Positions 141 to 6,075 of a stretch of 36,089 nt of DNA are shown here, in pieces; within the stretch, counting starts at the first letter, position 1; each line of letters opens with the position of its first letter. The notes beneath the pieces were generated by a model. It saw only the letters and a program-made list of their open reading frames with translations, had not been told where the DNA came from and did no database searches. This DNA comes from Flavobacteriaceae bacterium (lineage in GTDB: Bacteria > Bacteroidota > Bacteroidia > Flavobacteriales > Flavobacteriaceae), in contig JABDPU010000250.1 in NCBI GenBank assembly GCA_013042625.1, forward strand, positions 1-36,089, given 5' to 3'. Made by a program: the position numbers and the translations under genes.

Positions 141-569
141 ATGAAAAGACTCGGTTTGTTAACATTATTATTGGTGGTTTTGTCGTGCAGCGGCAATGAT
201 GATAACAATGAGAATTGCAACTTTCTTCTGAACGCTGCGGTTAATGCCGAATTAAATTTGAGCTTCCCTCAATATAACGACTTAAACTTTCCATCAAGTC
301 CAATATATGAGCCAAACCAGGGCAACGGAGGTATAATTGTAACGAACACGGGATCAGGTTACGTGGCATATGATGCTGCCGACCCTAATCATCAACAGAA
401 TCTCTGTTCTGTCCTGACCATCAACGGACTGGAAGGTGAATGTGGCTGTACAGACGAAAATACGTATAGCCTGTTTACAGGCCAGCCATTAAGTAATCCC
501 AATTTGCCGTGCGGACTTAAGGCCTACCGTGCAGAACTCATTGGCAATATCCTTCGGATCACGAATTAA
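141..569 (+). CDS. Small secreted lipoprotein with a degenerate Rieske-like C-terminal pattern
   Basis: N-terminal lipobox LLVVLSCSG. The C-terminal half 'GECGCTDENTYSLFTGQPLSNPNLPCGLKAYRAELIGNILRI' resembles a Rieske fold without the His ligands. Confidence 0.7.
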   Translation: MKRLGLLTLLLVVLSCSGNDDNNENCNFLLNAAVNAELNLSFPQYNDLNFPSSPIYEPNQGNGGIIVTNTGSGYVAYDAADPNHQQNLCSVLTINGLEGECGCTDENTYSLFTGQPLSNPNLPCGLKAYRAELIGNILRITN

Positions 570-2746
570 AACCTTAACGTTGCCCCTAACAAAAAATTCG
601 TAGTAGCCTGCGGATAATAACCTGCACCTTCAATAGTGGTTATCACTCCTGGAACTGAGAAATCATCATCGTAAGTGAAGTAGTAACCATTCGAAACATA
701 CTTTTCGTTGAAAATATTGTTTACCAGGGCCGAGAGAATCACTGACTTAAAAATTGACTTCGGCCTGAACTCATAAGTAGCACTCAAATCGTTTACAAAG
801 TAACTATCGAGTTTTGAGACTTCAGAATCGGTATTGCCCATAAATTGTTCACCTACATATTTACTTAACAGACTCAGCTGGAACTGATCATTCGGCTGAA
901 AAGTCAGGGCATTGCCTGCAATAAATTCAGGAGAGAATGAAATATTGGTTTTCCCAAGATTCACTAATTCACCATCGATAGAGGCAAAGGTTTCATTATT
1001 TTTATTGCTGCTTATCGTAAAATTAGGTTGTATGATCAACTTTTCACCAACCGATAATCCTGCTTCAACTTCCAACCCCAACCTGTAACTTTCTCCACTA
1101 TTGTTCCTTATAGGATTACCAACATCATCTATTGAACCTGTTAATATGAGTTGCTCATTATACAACATATAGTACCCGTTGATATTTAACTGGAGATTCT
1201 CAGAAAGAAATCGCCATCCCAGTTCAAAATCATTCAGTTGTTCTGGTTTGATATTGGGATTGCTTTCAAAATCGGTCCTGTTAGGTTCTCGGTTCGCCCT
1301 GGCATAAGAGAAATACAGGTTGCTACTATCATCAATTGAATAGGTTGCTCCAACTTTCGGATTAAAGAATTGATATGACTCATCTACGAGTAAATTAATC
1401 CGGTCTGAGGTCAGTCCTTCAGTAGTATAATTGACAAGTCTCAACTGAAGGTCACCATAGAGACTGATTTTATCGTTTAGTCTGAATGTTGATTTACCAA
1501 AAAAGTTGATATCGGTTTTCTTCCCTACACCATCGTAATAACGATCCCTGATCTCGGAATCTCCTGCAAACTGTGCCCAGATGATCTCACCAAAATGATC
1601 ACCCTCATAGTAACTATAGGAACCTCCAAAATCGGCCTCTAAATCGTCATTTCGGTAAGACGCGTGTGCATTGGCCACATAAAAGTCATTGTCCAGCCAT
1701 CGCCTCCTGATCAAATCAGTATTGGTAATAGTCTCATCCCCGACAGTTACATTATCAAGTCCGTAATCTTCAAAGCTATCATCCTCGCGGTACTGCTCAA
1801 AGAATCCTCTTCCGTAGGTGTAATTCAATCCCAGATTAAACCTCCAGTTTTGATTAAGTCTCTGATTCAAATGCAGCTGGTAATGATCCTGTTTATAGTT
1901 ATCAACCTCATTATCATAGAATTGGATATTGCCATCATCATCGGTATAAATACCTGAGGGATTAAAGGTTCTGTCGGTTGCAAGGGTTTCAGCATCAATA
2001 CCATACCAAGCCTGGTAGGTGATCTCGTGGCCACCAAAAACCAGTGCTTTTATCAGTGTATTTCCATATTTATAACCTGCCTGAAGAAAATATGATTTGA
2101 GATCGGATTCAGCTCGATCGATATATCCATCAGATTTGATCTGTGACAATCGTCCTGAGAACTCAAATCTGTCATTAAGAAGTCCGGTACCAAACTTCAC
2201 GGTATGTTTCCTGGTATTAAAACTGCCAAAGGAGTTCGACAATTCTGCAAAAGCAACATTGGCGATGGCATCGGTAAGGATGTTGATGCTCGACCCGAAT
2301 GCTCCGGAACCATTAGTCGATGTTCCAACACCCCGCTGTAACTGAAGGCTCTCAACCGATGAGGCAAAATCACCCAGATTGACCCAGAATGTGCCCAGTG
2401 ACTCAGCATCGTTATAAGGGATGCCATTTATGGTGATATTTGTAGACTGCGGACTTACACCTCTCACCCTGATCCCGGTATAACCCACTCCGGCTCCGGC
2501 ATCTGTAGTGGTAACCACAGATGGTAAAAAGTTTAATAAAATAGGCATATCCTGTCCTAAATTCCGCTTCGCCAGGGCCTCCTTCTTTATATTGGAGTGG
2601 GTAATAGGTGCGTTGGGCTTAACTCGTATTGCTGTGAGCAATACCTCATCGAGGGTTTCCACTTTTGTAGTATCGGTGGATTTCTCTTGTGCGTTTGCGA
2701 TACTAATACCACATAAAAGGGTAAAAAGGAATAAAAACTTTTTCAT
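566..2746 (-). CDS. TonB-dependent outer-membrane receptor, predicted thiamine or thiamine-precursor uptake
   Basis: Signal peptide, plug motif 'GYTGIRVRGVSPQSTNITINGIPYNDAES', beta-barrel ending in ...LGATLRF. It lies directly downstream of a TPP riboswitch on the same strand. Confidence 0.93.
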   Translation of the reverse strand: MKKFLFLFTLLCGISIANAQEKSTDTTKVETLDEVLLTAIRVKPNAPITHSNIKKEALAKRNLGQDMPILLNFLPSVVTTTDAGAGVGYTGIRVRGVSPQSTNITINGIPYNDAESLGTFWVNLGDFASSVESLQLQRGVGTSTNGSGAFGSSINILTDAIANVAFAELSNSFGSFNTRKHTVKFGTGLLNDRFEFSGRLSQIKSDGYIDRAESDLKSYFLQAGYKYGNTLIKALVFGGHEITYQAWYGIDAETLATDRTFNPSGIYTDDDGNIQFYDNEVDNYKQDHYQLHLNQRLNQNWRFNLGLNYTYGRGFFEQYREDDSFEDYGLDNVTVGDETITNTDLIRRRWLDNDFYVANAHASYRNDDLEADFGGSYSYYEGDHFGEIIWAQFAGDSEIRDRYYDGVGKKTDINFFGKSTFRLNDKISLYGDLQLRLVNYTTEGLTSDRINLLVDESYQFFNPKVGATYSIDDSSNLYFSYARANREPNRTDFESNPNIKPEQLNDFELGWRFLSENLQLNINGYYMLYNEQLILTGSIDDVGNPIRNNSGESYRLGLEVEAGLSVGEKLIIQPNFTISSNKNNETFASIDGELVNLGKTNISFSPEFIAGNALTFQPNDQFQLSLLSKYVGEQFMGNTDSEVSKLDSYFVNDLSATYEFRPKSIFKSVILSALVNNIFNEKYVSNGYYFTYDDDFSVPGVITTIEGAGYYPQATTNFLLGATLRF

Positions 2747-2837
2747 TCGAATATGTTTTCCGAATAAAAGGGGAAACTCGGGTGATTTAGTCTTAAGGAC
2801 TTTGTTTTAACTTGTTTTAACCGTCTCTAATTACAGT

Positions 2838-2933
2838 TTCGGTTATTTCCCTAAACAGCGTTACCTGTTCCAGGTTCAATGGGTATGATCTCAGCCTGCC
2901 GATTATTATCGGGAATTGGCACCCCTTTTGAGA
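2838..2933 (-). promoter_or_regulatory. TPP (thiamine pyrophosphate) riboswitch aptamer
   Basis: Minus strand reads AAAAGGGGTGCCAATTCCCGATAATAATCGGCAGGCTGAGATCATACCCATTGAACCTGGAACAGGTAACGCTGTTTAGGGAAATAACC. It carries the THI-box core GGGGTGCC...GGCTGAGATCATACCC...GAACCTG..CAGGTAA.GCTG..TAGGGAA and a P3 hairpin CCGAT-AATA-ATCGG. Confidence 0.94.
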
Positions 2934-2939
2934 ACGATG

Positions 2940-2947
2940 CAAAGATA
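2940..2947 (-). promoter_or_regulatory. Bacteroidota-type -7 promoter element (TATCTTTG) for the riboswitch/TonB transcript
   Basis: Plus-strand CAAAGATA gives TATCTTTG on the minus strand, matching TAnnTTTG and lying just 5' of the TPP aptamer. Confidence 0.6.
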
Positions 2948-2982: not shown

Positions 2983-3384
2983 TTAATATTCAGGATTCTG
3001 CCGGCTTTGTTTTTTCTGGCTTTTTCGTTTTTTTTCGTCAAGGCGCTTTTCCGCAGCCTTTTTCGGAATCTTGGTTGGTTTTCTTTTTTTCTTCGGAATA
3101 AGAGCTGTCTCGATGAGCTCAAAAAATCGGTCAATGAGAATCTGTTTATTTCGAAACTGGCTTCTCGTTTCATCGCATTGCATGACGATAATCCCACTTT
3201 TGTTTATCCGGTTTGATATCTTTTCACTTATTACTGCTTTTTCTTCTGAAGTAAGTCCGGCGGAATTTTCAAGGTCGAATTGCAGCTCAATCTTAGTAGA
3301 GACCTTGTTGACATGCTGACCACCCGCTCCTGAACTCCTTAGGGCTTTTAATTTCAATTCGTTATTTAAGACATCCCTGTTCAT
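2983..3384 (-). CDS. arfB: Alternative ribosome-rescue factor ArfB (peptidyl-tRNA hydrolase, class I RF-like)
   Basis: GGQ motif in 'LRSSGAGGQHVNKVSTKIEL' and a Lys/Arg-rich C-terminal tail, as in ArfB/YaeJ. Confidence 0.92.
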   Translation of the reverse strand: MNRDVLNNELKLKALRSSGAGGQHVNKVSTKIELQFDLENSAGLTSEEKAVISEKISNRINKSGIIVMQCDETRSQFRNKQILIDRFFELIETALIPKKKRKPTKIPKKAAEKRLDEKKRKSQKKQSRQNPEY

Positions 3385-4916
3385 GATCCTGAATGCATAG
3401 GACCAAACAAATCATTAACTGTCTTAACCGGATTGAAAGTACTGATCGGCACTTCAACAAATAAGGTGATCCAATTGGCCATACCTCCATTCCAAAGTCC
3501 GGGTAATTCTAATGCCTTCAACGGTTTGCCCAGATATGTTTTTTCGCTGATAAAAGCTGAATCCGGATCGCTGAAATCAAGGAGATCAAATGATTTTCCC
3601 CTCCAGTCTTTCAACCAGCAAACCAAATCCACGGGATTAAAATGAGTGGCACTATTTAATATCTGAAACTGATCGGGTTTGGATGTATCAATTTGTGATG
3701 CCTCTACAATTTGTAAAGAAACCTCTCCCTGACTATCTACCCAGAACGGCCCTCCTCCTGGCTGACCTTCATTCTTTACCATGCCACATACTCGCAATGG
3801 CCGGTTCAATTTCGATATCAGCCATTGACGCTTTTCATCATCATCCATTCCCGAAAAGTCTTTCGGAATTTGAAGATTAAACTCCTTTGAAGCCAACTCA
3901 AGAACAGAAGAAAAAGATTGGTCTTCATAATTCGATCTGTTTAATCGTTCAATCAGGTTATGTCCTAAATTTTTCTTTTTGATCAGAAACCCTCCCAGGG
4001 CTTTTCTGTATCTGGCAATATCCTTATTCCTGTTTTCAACCGCAACATTATCAATATTACTTATAAAAACCAATTCGGTTTCTAACGCATTCAAATTATG
4101 CAATAATGCTCCATGCCCTGATGGCCTGAATAACAAGGCGCCTTCTTCATTTCTTATTGGTTTATTCTGAAGATCTACTGCTATGGTATCGGTAGTGGGA
4201 TCCTGTTCAGAAAAACTAATGGCGAATTTAAATCCGTACTTCTCTTCAAGATCAGATTGAATTTTAGAGAACTTTTCCCTGAACAGGGACTTATGTTCCG
4301 GTGATACTGTAAAATGCAAGGCAACGCCATTCTTGTTAAATGCGTAACCAGTAGCTTCATGCAAATGTTCTTCAAATGCAGTTCTGGTTTGACTACCATA
4401 AATATGAAAGTCGATCAACCCTTTTGGCATTTGACCCAGGTTCATGCCTTCCGGCATTAACATCAGGCTGACAAAGGCCTTCAAATCGTTAGAAAAGTCA
4501 AAATCTTTTTTTCCATATTCAGTTTTCAGATCATTAAAGAAGGGTAAGCGTTCTTTGTTGTTATGAAAATGAAGGATTTCGTCATTATTTGTTGTCTCCA
4601 GATATTCATTCGAAGAAAGAGAGTTTTGATTGAGTTCATCGAGGAACTCAAATAAAAACTTAAACATCCTGGTCGCCTGTCCTGAAGCCGGAACGAATTT
4701 CATCAAACTGAAATCATCTTTACTGCTATCAAAAAGATCGGCGCTCTCTTTTAATTGATGATCAGATAATTTAGTGATGCCCTTCCCGATGGTTGCAGCA
4801 TTCATGATGTGCACAGCGGAAAGGCCTTTTCGGAAGATTTTCAATTGTTTTTCAAGCTGTTCTGTTGAAATACCTTTGGCCTTGAGTTGTTCAATATCTT
4901 TCGGGGCGAGTTTCAT
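3381..4916 (-). CDS. DUF4301 family protein with nucleotidyltransferase-like motifs
   Basis: 'LMKFVPASGQATRMFKFL' and 'LFRPSGHGALLHNLNALETELVFISNIDNVAVENR' fit the DUF4301 family of Bacteroidota. Confidence 0.75.
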   Translation of the reverse strand: MKLAPKDIEQLKAKGISTEQLEKQLKIFRKGLSAVHIMNAATIGKGITKLSDHQLKESADLFDSSKDDFSLMKFVPASGQATRMFKFLFEFLDELNQNSLSSNEYLETTNNDEILHFHNNKERLPFFNDLKTEYGKKDFDFSNDLKAFVSLMLMPEGMNLGQMPKGLIDFHIYGSQTRTAFEEHLHEATGYAFNKNGVALHFTVSPEHKSLFREKFSKIQSDLEEKYGFKFAISFSEQDPTTDTIAVDLQNKPIRNEEGALLFRPSGHGALLHNLNALETELVFISNIDNVAVENRNKDIARYRKALGGFLIKKKNLGHNLIERLNRSNYEDQSFSSVLELASKEFNLQIPKDFSGMDDDEKRQWLISKLNRPLRVCGMVKNEGQPGGGPFWVDSQGEVSLQIVEASQIDTSKPDQFQILNSATHFNPVDLVCWLKDWRGKSFDLLDFSDPDSAFISEKTYLGKPLKALELPGLWNGGMANWITLFVEVPISTFNPVKTVNDLFGPMHSGS

Positions 4917-5482
4917 GATTTTTCCCTTAAAAGTTTATCAATATGTTTAACCGCTTCCTGCAGTCTTTCGTTTTTGGTTCCTTTCAATAGCACATAGGGC
5001 CTTTTGTTCTGCTCTAATGCATCCTTAAAGGCATTGAACATCCTTTCCCTCTCATCTGGTTTATCGCGGAGGTCATCTGCAATCCATGGGACATCAATAT
5101 AAGTTAAGAAATAGAGGTCATAGGTGTTTTTAAGCGCATATTTATCCAAATGAGGATCACAACTTCCAAGGTAATAGGCTTCGGAATAAACTTTGGTCTC
5201 GAGAAGATCTGTATCGCAGATCAGAACCGATTCGGTTTTCTGTGCCAGTTCATTCTCCAGTTTCATCTGTCCGATTGCAATCGGAACCAGGTCATGCGGC
5301 TCGCATGTCATTCGTTCGTTATTCCACTTGTCCTGAAGATAATCTCGTGCATATTCGGGCACCCAAACCGAATTGTAGTGCCTGGCCAGCATTTGCGAAA
5401 GGGTGGTCTTCCCGGTAGATTCCGGTCCGAAAATAACGACTTTCAGACAGTTTGAGGGTTGTTGTTTAAGCTTCTCTTCCAT
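4913..5482 (-). CDS. NadR-like P-loop kinase (ribosylnicotinamide kinase-type AAA ATPase)
   Basis: Walker A GPESTGKTTL, 'PEYARDYL', 'ICDTDLLETKVYSEAYY' and the DDLRD lid region are typical of the NadR kinase domain. No adenylyltransferase domain is present. Confidence 0.85.
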   Translation of the reverse strand: MEEKLKQQPSNCLKVVIFGPESTGKTTLSQMLARHYNSVWVPEYARDYLQDKWNNERMTCEPHDLVPIAIGQMKLENELAQKTESVLICDTDLLETKVYSEAYYLGSCDPHLDKYALKNTYDLYFLTYIDVPWIADDLRDKPDERERMFNAFKDALEQNKRPYVLLKGTKNERLQEAVKHIDKLLREKS

Positions 5483-6075
5483 TCAATATAACCTTGAATT
5501 GCAAGGACTGTAAAGATAACATATTGTAACGAGAGCATCCCTAAACCTCGGTATGCATATAAGGGAATTGTAATAAGATTGCCTATGATCCATAAGGTCC
5601 AGTTTTCCAGTTTTTTATTCGCCATATACCACATGGCGGTAAAGAAAATTCCAGAAGTCACCACATCGATATAATTGAGAATAGCCATCTCATAGTCATA
5701 GGCCATATAAACCAGGTAGGTTACGACCATTGTAAGCAGGAAGAAAAGGACACCAACCCTTTTTTCCCTGGTATTGGTTCGCGAAATCGGAACTACATAT
5801 TCATCACCTTTCTTCCTGGACCAGTTCCACCATCCATAAATGCTCATCACCGAATAATAAAAATTCATCATCATATCACCGAAATAGGAATTGAGATATA
5901 AGAGGTATACTGTAATCGCCGTGCAAATTATCCCGGTTGGATAAACCCAGATATTTGCCTTTTTAGCATAATAGACACTAAGTATTCCGAATACAAACGC
6001 AATGCCTTCCAGAACGATCAGGTGCCAGGCTGTACCTTTGTAGGCATTTATGAAAAAATCGATTGCCTCGGTCAT
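5443..6075 (-). CDS. PnuC/PnuT-family vitamin transporter
   Basis: Multi-TM protein with 'SVMSIYGWWNW', 'WIIGNLITIPLYAYRGL' and 'GYIEWKRSL', typical of PnuC. Overlaps the NadR-like kinase gene. Confidence 0.88.
   Translation of the reverse strand: MTEAIDFFINAYKGTAWHLIVLEGIAFVFGILSVYYAKKANIWVYPTGIICTAITVYLLYLNSYFGDMMMNFYYSVMSIYGWWNWSRKKGDEYVVPISRTNTREKRVGVLFFLLTMVVTYLVYMAYDYEMAILNYIDVVTSGIFFTAMWYMANKKLENWTLWIIGNLITIPLYAYRGLGMLSLQYVIFTVLAIQGYIEWKRSLNNNPQTV

Follow-up and report, generated by a model that had tools for sequence, protein, structure and literature searches.

A TPP riboswitch with a predicted P2-based switching region in a putative thiamine import locus of Flavobacteriaceae

The window, a stretch of 36,089 nucleotides from a Flavobacteriaceae bacterium (GenBank assembly GCA_013042625.1, contig JABDPU010000250.1), carries on its minus strand a locus that reads with reasonable probability as a thiamine import unit with a kinase trap and a TPP switch based on aptamer helix P2. 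In this model, a TonB-dependent receptor would use TonB energy to carry thiamine or a thiamine phosphate through the outer membrane, and a PnuC-type carrier would pass thiamine across the inner membrane. A stand-alone NadR-like kinase would trap thiamine as TMP, ThiL would turn TMP into TPP, and TPP would close the receptor gene through its riboswitch. The substrates assigned here to transport and to the kinase are putative. The features of the locus are collected in Table 1.

Table 1. Features of the putative thiamine import locus in the window
Feature	Positions	Strand	Basis or remark
TonB-dependent receptor, 726 aa, predicted thiamine importer (OMthi-like)	566..2746	-	PF07715 plug + PF00593 barrel
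Stem B (helix iii): UUUUAUUCGGA (2769-2759) with UUCGAAUGAAA (2751-2741)	2741..2769	-	11 bp
Hairpin A (helix ii): CCGAGU (2781-2776) with AUUCGG (2765-2760)	2760..2781	-	own-partner versus swapped-partner test
CCCCUUUU in the loop of hairpin A	2766..2773	-	complementary to P2 5' strand
TPP riboswitch aptamer (without P3a, weak P1)	2844..2934	-	lineage model + RF00059
AAAAGGGG: P2 5' strand with preceding A-run	2922..2929	-	predicted switching partner of 2766-2773
Promoter -7 box TATCTTTG (Bacteroidota TAnnTTTG type)	2940..2947	-	sequence; just before aptamer
arfB, conserved neighbour without evident link	2983..3384	-	NF006718, 129.8 bits, cut-off 100; synteny
DUF4301 protein, conserved neighbour	3381..4916	-	PF14134, 639 bits; synteny
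Stand-alone NadR-like AAA_28 P-loop kinase, 189 aa, predicted thiamine kinase	4913..5482	-	PF13521
PnuC-family inner-membrane carrier, predicted PnuT-like	5443..6075	-	PF04973

The aptamer lies between arfB and the receptor gene, where the first-pass annotation had recognised a THI-box core. An Rfam search of the window at the gathering threshold returned no match. In E-value mode, RF00059 aligned over the full model (positions 1-105) to 2831-2936(-) with 36.7 bits and an E-value of 8.5e-6 for the window, below the curated gathering cut-off of 54.3 bits, which is a score limit and not a biological feature. The same search of the whole genome gave this single match (E 1.6e-5). The RF00059 hit that had been anticipated is thus significant by its E-value and does not reach the Rfam cut-off. 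A lineage covariance model, built from 32 homologous aptamers with the genus of the window excluded, located the aptamer in the window with 76.7 bits (E 2e-19) and in the whole genome with an E-value of 1.6e-17, the next best place scoring 17.5 bits.

Like other members of the RF00059 family, the element contains the core motifs GGGGUG, CUGAGA, ACCC and GAACCUG and the helices P2, P3, P4 and P5. The pairs of these helices are kept among the 32 relatives, with 9 of the 15 pairs changed on both sides. The element differs from the family in the absence of P3a, a weak P1 and the score under the cut-off, as well as in the anti-P2 hairpin loop and the start-codon stem that follow downstream. The closing helix P1 is not formed in the register of Rfam. 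An alternative pairing of UUCUC with GGGAA is possible and showed no covariation in the relatives (p 0.37), which indicates that the permutation test is not positive for every helix that can be drawn. The low RF00059 score fits the missing P3a and the P1 that is not formed in the register of Rfam. Minimum-free-energy folding of the aptamer was no better than that of shuffled sequences (z 0.25), and folding energy is therefore uninformative either way. At the level of sequence, the TPP aptamer of the window is confirmed as real, and the binding of TPP itself is predicted. The coordinates first assigned to it (2838-2933) were right to within a few bases; they left out the switching region at about 2781-2741.

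A promoter belonging to the riboswitch itself had also been proposed, and the comparison with relatives bears this out. The TAnnTTTG box is found 19-24 nt ahead of GGGG in 52 of 55 homologous aptamers, compared with 0-4 of 47-55 control stretches of equal length further upstream. A further 80 loci, drawn from a genome collection and partly overlapping the first set, showed the aptamer in 79 cases and the box in 78. The box thus stands at a near-fixed distance, and the riboswitch and the receptor gene appear to form a unit with a promoter of its own directly ahead of the aptamer.

This unit is widely kept. An orthologue of the receptor, nearly always in single copy, occurs in 55 of 60 related genomes, and the GGGGUG...CUGAGA core stands upstream of all 55 orthologous receptor genes, including that of G031, in which the RF00059 search gave no match. 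RF00059 matches were obtained in 56 of the 60 relatives, above the cut-off in 21. By homology alone, as had been foreseen, the receptor would be called generic or iron-related: both PF07715 and PF00593 scored above their cut-offs, identifying a generic TonB-dependent receptor, and the best NCBIfam models were sub-threshold matches to haem and haemoglobin receptors. It is highly improbable that the THI-box match is decayed or fortuitous and that the receptor is one for haem or siderophores. The RF00059 score under the Rfam cut-off and the identity of the best NCBIfam models would agree with such a reading; the core ahead of 55 of 55 orthologues and the 76.7 bits of the lineage model argue against a chance match, and the haem models reached only 60-64 bits against cut-offs of 317-324. 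A haem or siderophore assignment from NCBIfam was rejected on account of these scores. Among solved structures, none was related to the receptor by sequence.

TPP-controlled TonB receptors are already known in Bacteroidota, in agreement with the first-pass annotation. The example is OMthi/BT2390 (PMC5613172; Rodionov 2002 as cited there and in PMC5317091). According to PMC5613172, and to Rodionov 2002 as cited there, OMthi (BT2390)-pnuT-tnr3 is the thiamine uptake arrangement of gut Bacteroidetes. The locus in the window shares with it a TPP riboswitch before a TonB receptor, a PnuC-family carrier and a kinase beside the carrier. It deviates in that it lacks a thiamine pyrophosphokinase (TPK) and has a NadR-like kinase beside PnuC instead, and in that the riboswitch follows PnuC and the kinase instead of preceding them. 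The context of the OMthi type was thus found in the window as a TPP riboswitch, a link to PnuC and a phosphorylating enzyme, the latter being a predicted kinase and not a TPK. The likeness to OMthi (BT2390) is one of gene arrangement.

Homologous receptors of other lineages are encoded in receptor-PnuC-TPK operons (L109, L197, L199 and L200), in which TPK holds the place of the kinase beside PnuC. The TPK domain was confirmed in L197 itself and, for L109, in its genome. ThiC was not found in the genome of the window, in a 99% complete genus mate or in 45 of 60 related genomes. The earlier proposal that the riboswitch marks the receptor as a thiamine importer is supported by this context: since the aptamer core precedes all 55 orthologues, receptor-PnuC-TPK operons exist and ThiC was not found, a thiamine importer is the best reading of the receptor. 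It is unlikely that the receptor takes up TPP, TMP or a precursor (for instance the pyrimidine or the thiazole moiety) rather than thiamine itself. An aptamer for the end product leaves the imported form unspecified, and ThiL is kept, both of which would be compatible with such a substrate. Against it, B. thetaiotaomicron requires more thiamine when OMthi is deleted and biosynthesis is lost as well (PMC5613172), and a PnuC carrier with the kinase or TPK beside it is consistent with free thiamine arriving at the inner membrane. A gene for a small putative lipoprotein (141-569, plus strand), without a Pfam or NCBIfam match, converges on the receptor gene, and its position there is kept in many relatives.

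Downstream of the aptamer, three helices are proposed to form the switching part. Helix (i) pairs AAAAGGGG (2929-2922) with CCCCUUUU (2773-2766) over 8 bp at -11.5 kcal/mol. As it excludes P2, it also excludes the TPP-bound aptamer. Hairpin A exposes the C-rich element CCCCUUUU in its loop. Stem B covers the receptor AUG at 2746-2744, shares bases with helix (i) and hairpin A and competes with both. In relatives, the leader 3' of the aptamer typically takes the form GAAUAAUNNCCYCUUUUAUUCG...CGAAUGAAA.

Each helix was tested by comparing the pairing of a strand with its own partner and with partners from other sequences, a permutation that ignores shared ancestry. For helix (i), matched partners in 49 leaders gave -11.42 versus -10.94 kcal/mol (sd 0.11, p 1e-4), the 49-leader sets being also those in which the helix pattern was first noticed. 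The preference was also seen in 69 flavobacterial leaders (p 0.001) and in 18 genomes that belong to other families of this class (-10.9 versus -9.2, p 5e-5), whose loci had been fetched before the hypothesis on the P2-loop contact was formed and in which a reversed-arm control gave p 0.59. Hairpin A formed a stem of 6.43 bp with its own partner versus 5.51 bp with swapped partners in 49 leaders (p 1e-4); in the 69 close relatives, where its sequence is nearly invariant, p was 0.77. For stem B, the own-partner value in 48 leaders was 8.38 bp versus 7.00 (sd 0.17, p 1e-4). Convincing single examples of helix (i) are L201 (UAAACAGGGG opposite CCCCUGUUUA), L203 (AUGGGGUG opposite CACCCCAU) and L098 (ACGGGG opposite CUCCGU). 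The covariation of the three helices supports a translational OFF switch built on P2.

For this switch, the following course is proposed, in which ligand binding, direction and the translational level are predicted. Without TPP, the P2 5' strand AAAAGGGG would pair with the hairpin A loop at CCCCUUUU. The segment able to cover the start codon would thereby be tied up in helix (i), so that the receptor would be translated. With TPP, P2 would be locked and hairpin A left without its partner; UUUUAUUCGGA could then pair over the AUG and translation would stop. Hairpin A and helix (i) may form simultaneously, as an 8 bp loop contact, or successively.

The mode of TPP riboswitches in Bacteroidetes was called uncertain by Costliow and Degnan (PMC5613172), who saw no significant change in the mRNA of the receptor and pnuT operons of B. 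thetaiotaomicron with thiamine. A translational switch would explain this lack of an mRNA response in transport operons of Bacteroidetes. In an RNA-seq survey of riboswitches that included Bacteroides data, 6 of 57 TPP riboswitches were transcriptionally active, none of them from Bacteroides (PMC12121620). It appears quite improbable that the riboswitch acts by early termination, for instance Rho-dependent, or by mRNA decay rather than by hiding the start codon. Some TPP riboswitches do act on transcription or mRNA level, and that of E. coli tbpA does both (PMC11487190); yet the terminator search, which covered intrinsic sites, found none in the leader, stem B covaries over the AUG, and the B. 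thetaiotaomicron operons are without the mRNA change just mentioned. The E. coli tbpA riboswitch likewise exerts translational OFF control ahead of thiamine transport genes (PMC11487190), as is predicted for the switch in the window. It is described with an anti-P1 stem and masking of the Shine-Dalgarno sequence (PMC11487190), whereas in the window P2 would be attacked and the start codon masked. The anti-P2 element would accordingly be a variant.

The switching hairpin is missing from a few leaders. In L113 and L114 (genomes G054 and G041), which lack the anti-P2 hairpin, only about 70 nt separate CUGAGA from the receptor start codon, and control there would have to be direct occlusion. In L297, L298, L300, L302 and L314, from uncultured or single-cell/MAG sources, the aptamer is kept with short leaders that lack the C-rich hairpin; the switching part can thus be lost while the aptamer stays.

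The PnuC-type carrier and the kinase belong to a same-strand order that runs from a phosphopantetheinyl transferase and a geranylgeranylglyceryl-phosphate synthase family protein through PnuC, the kinase, DUF4301 and arfB to the riboswitch and the receptor. This order is kept across many genera of the family, in which DUF4301 constantly accompanies the kinase and the riboswitch-receptor unit. More distantly, in other families, the kinase stands directly ahead of the riboswitch-receptor unit, and in the class sample at least 19 genomes from at least 10 families have a same-strand kinase ending less than 5 kb, often less than 200 nt, before the aptamer. As PnuC and the kinase lie upstream of the riboswitch, control of both by TPP is not obvious here.

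The nearest solved chains to the kinase are those of the NadR kinase domain (1lw7, 9x6f and 8x7f). Both belong to the P-loop family with a Walker A motif and share the conserved residues E43, R46, D90-T91, D136 and R139. Because of this resemblance, homology alone would name nicotinamide riboside as the substrate. The enzyme in the window differs from NadR in that it stands alone, without the fused adenylyltransferase domain, and in its genomic link to thiamine. E76 and P142 are near-invariant in the stand-alone group; at these positions, I and E prevail in NadR. For the NadR of L. lactis, the kinase site is reported as empty (PMC7221760).

In the window, the kinase matched AAA_28 only and not the TPK catalytic domain, and a search of the genome with PF04263 (TPK) gave no match. 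This genome is about 85% complete, which makes gene absences provisional; the 99% complete genus mate agrees. Among the 55 receptor-bearing relatives, the kinase is present in 48, TPK in 6, both in 1 and neither in 2. One of the latter (G001) is cut by a contig end, and the other, G045, has neither gene. Of the 197 genomes in the class sample, the kinase is present in 106, TPK in 39 and both in 4, all of one genus; the near exclusion has a genus-level Fisher p of 2.6e-9 in this class sample. The two occur together in G005 and in genus g55. True NadR, with adenylyltransferase and kinase, is encoded separately in genomes with the stand-alone kinase, mostly with a PnuC of its own. ThiL was found above its cut-off in 58 of 60 genomes, that of the window included. 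ThiL was rejected as a discriminator between routes, as its near-universal presence shows only that TMP can be finished to TPP. In view of the near exclusion with TPK, the separate NadR and the presence of ThiL, the stand-alone enzyme is predicted, by guilt by association, to be a thiamine kinase.

With 77.6 bits, the carrier scores above the cut-off of the NCBIfam PnuC equivalog (42.45 bits). In a quick PnuC tree, it falls on the TPK-linked and TPP-controlled side (SH-aLRT 95), apart from most NadR-linked PnuCs; the NadR side also holds some kinase-linked PnuCs from other families. In some genomes, the PnuC-kinase pair lies away from the receptor. The pair could be a separate nicotinamide riboside uptake module that is merely nearby, with the receptor still a TPP-controlled thiamine importer, a reading considered somewhat unlikely. 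It draws on this separation, on the equivalog score of the carrier and on the NadR affiliation of the kinase, whose nearest characterised relatives phosphorylate nicotinamide riboside. However, near exclusion with TPK is unexpected for a nicotinamide riboside kinase, these genomes also encode a separate full-length NadR, often accompanied by a PnuC of its own, and at least 10 families of the class have the kinase just ahead of the TPP-receptor unit. A thiamine kinase served by the carrier remains the preferred reading.

Taking the class of Bacteroidota sampled as a whole, the chances are about even that its TPP-controlled thiamine receptors rely on a translational anti-P2 switch and that many members convert imported thiamine to TPP through ThiL and an as yet undescribed thiamine kinase of NadR type, in place of TPK. 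The anti-P2 switching part and a kinase that seems to replace a missing vitamin B1 enzyme look new: no description of the anti-P2 platform or of a NadR-like thiamine kinase was found in the literature searched, an absence that is no proof of novelty. The covarying helix over the start codon offers a testable translational mechanism for TPP riboswitches of Bacteroidetes. If true, a thiamine kinase of this type would supply the step that is lacking in many flavobacteria without detected ThiC or TPK. It would further correct a likely misannotation as nicotinamide riboside kinase and transporter, and change how vitamin B1 auxotrophy and exchange are read from genomes.

Several variant loci were encountered in the comparison. 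NadR, PnuC and a receptor paralogue stand in a row in L217:2312-5926 (G003:C13) and L222:315-3943 (G188:C43), in both cases apart from the TPP-controlled unit of the same genome. The paralogue, which in L222 reads as two ORFs, may import nicotinamide riboside or a relative across the outer membrane. In L083:5645-6921 (G019:C1), the usual upstream PnuC is missing, and the TPP-controlled receptor is followed by a gene resembling 2OG-Fe(II) oxygenases and by a divergent PnuC. In L212:2188-3760, L213:735-2361 and L214:2412-4035, a TPP riboswitch lies directly ahead of a PnuC-type carrier, the gene of which overlaps that of an acyl-CoA-dehydrogenase-like flavoprotein, a possible thiamine salvage enzyme.
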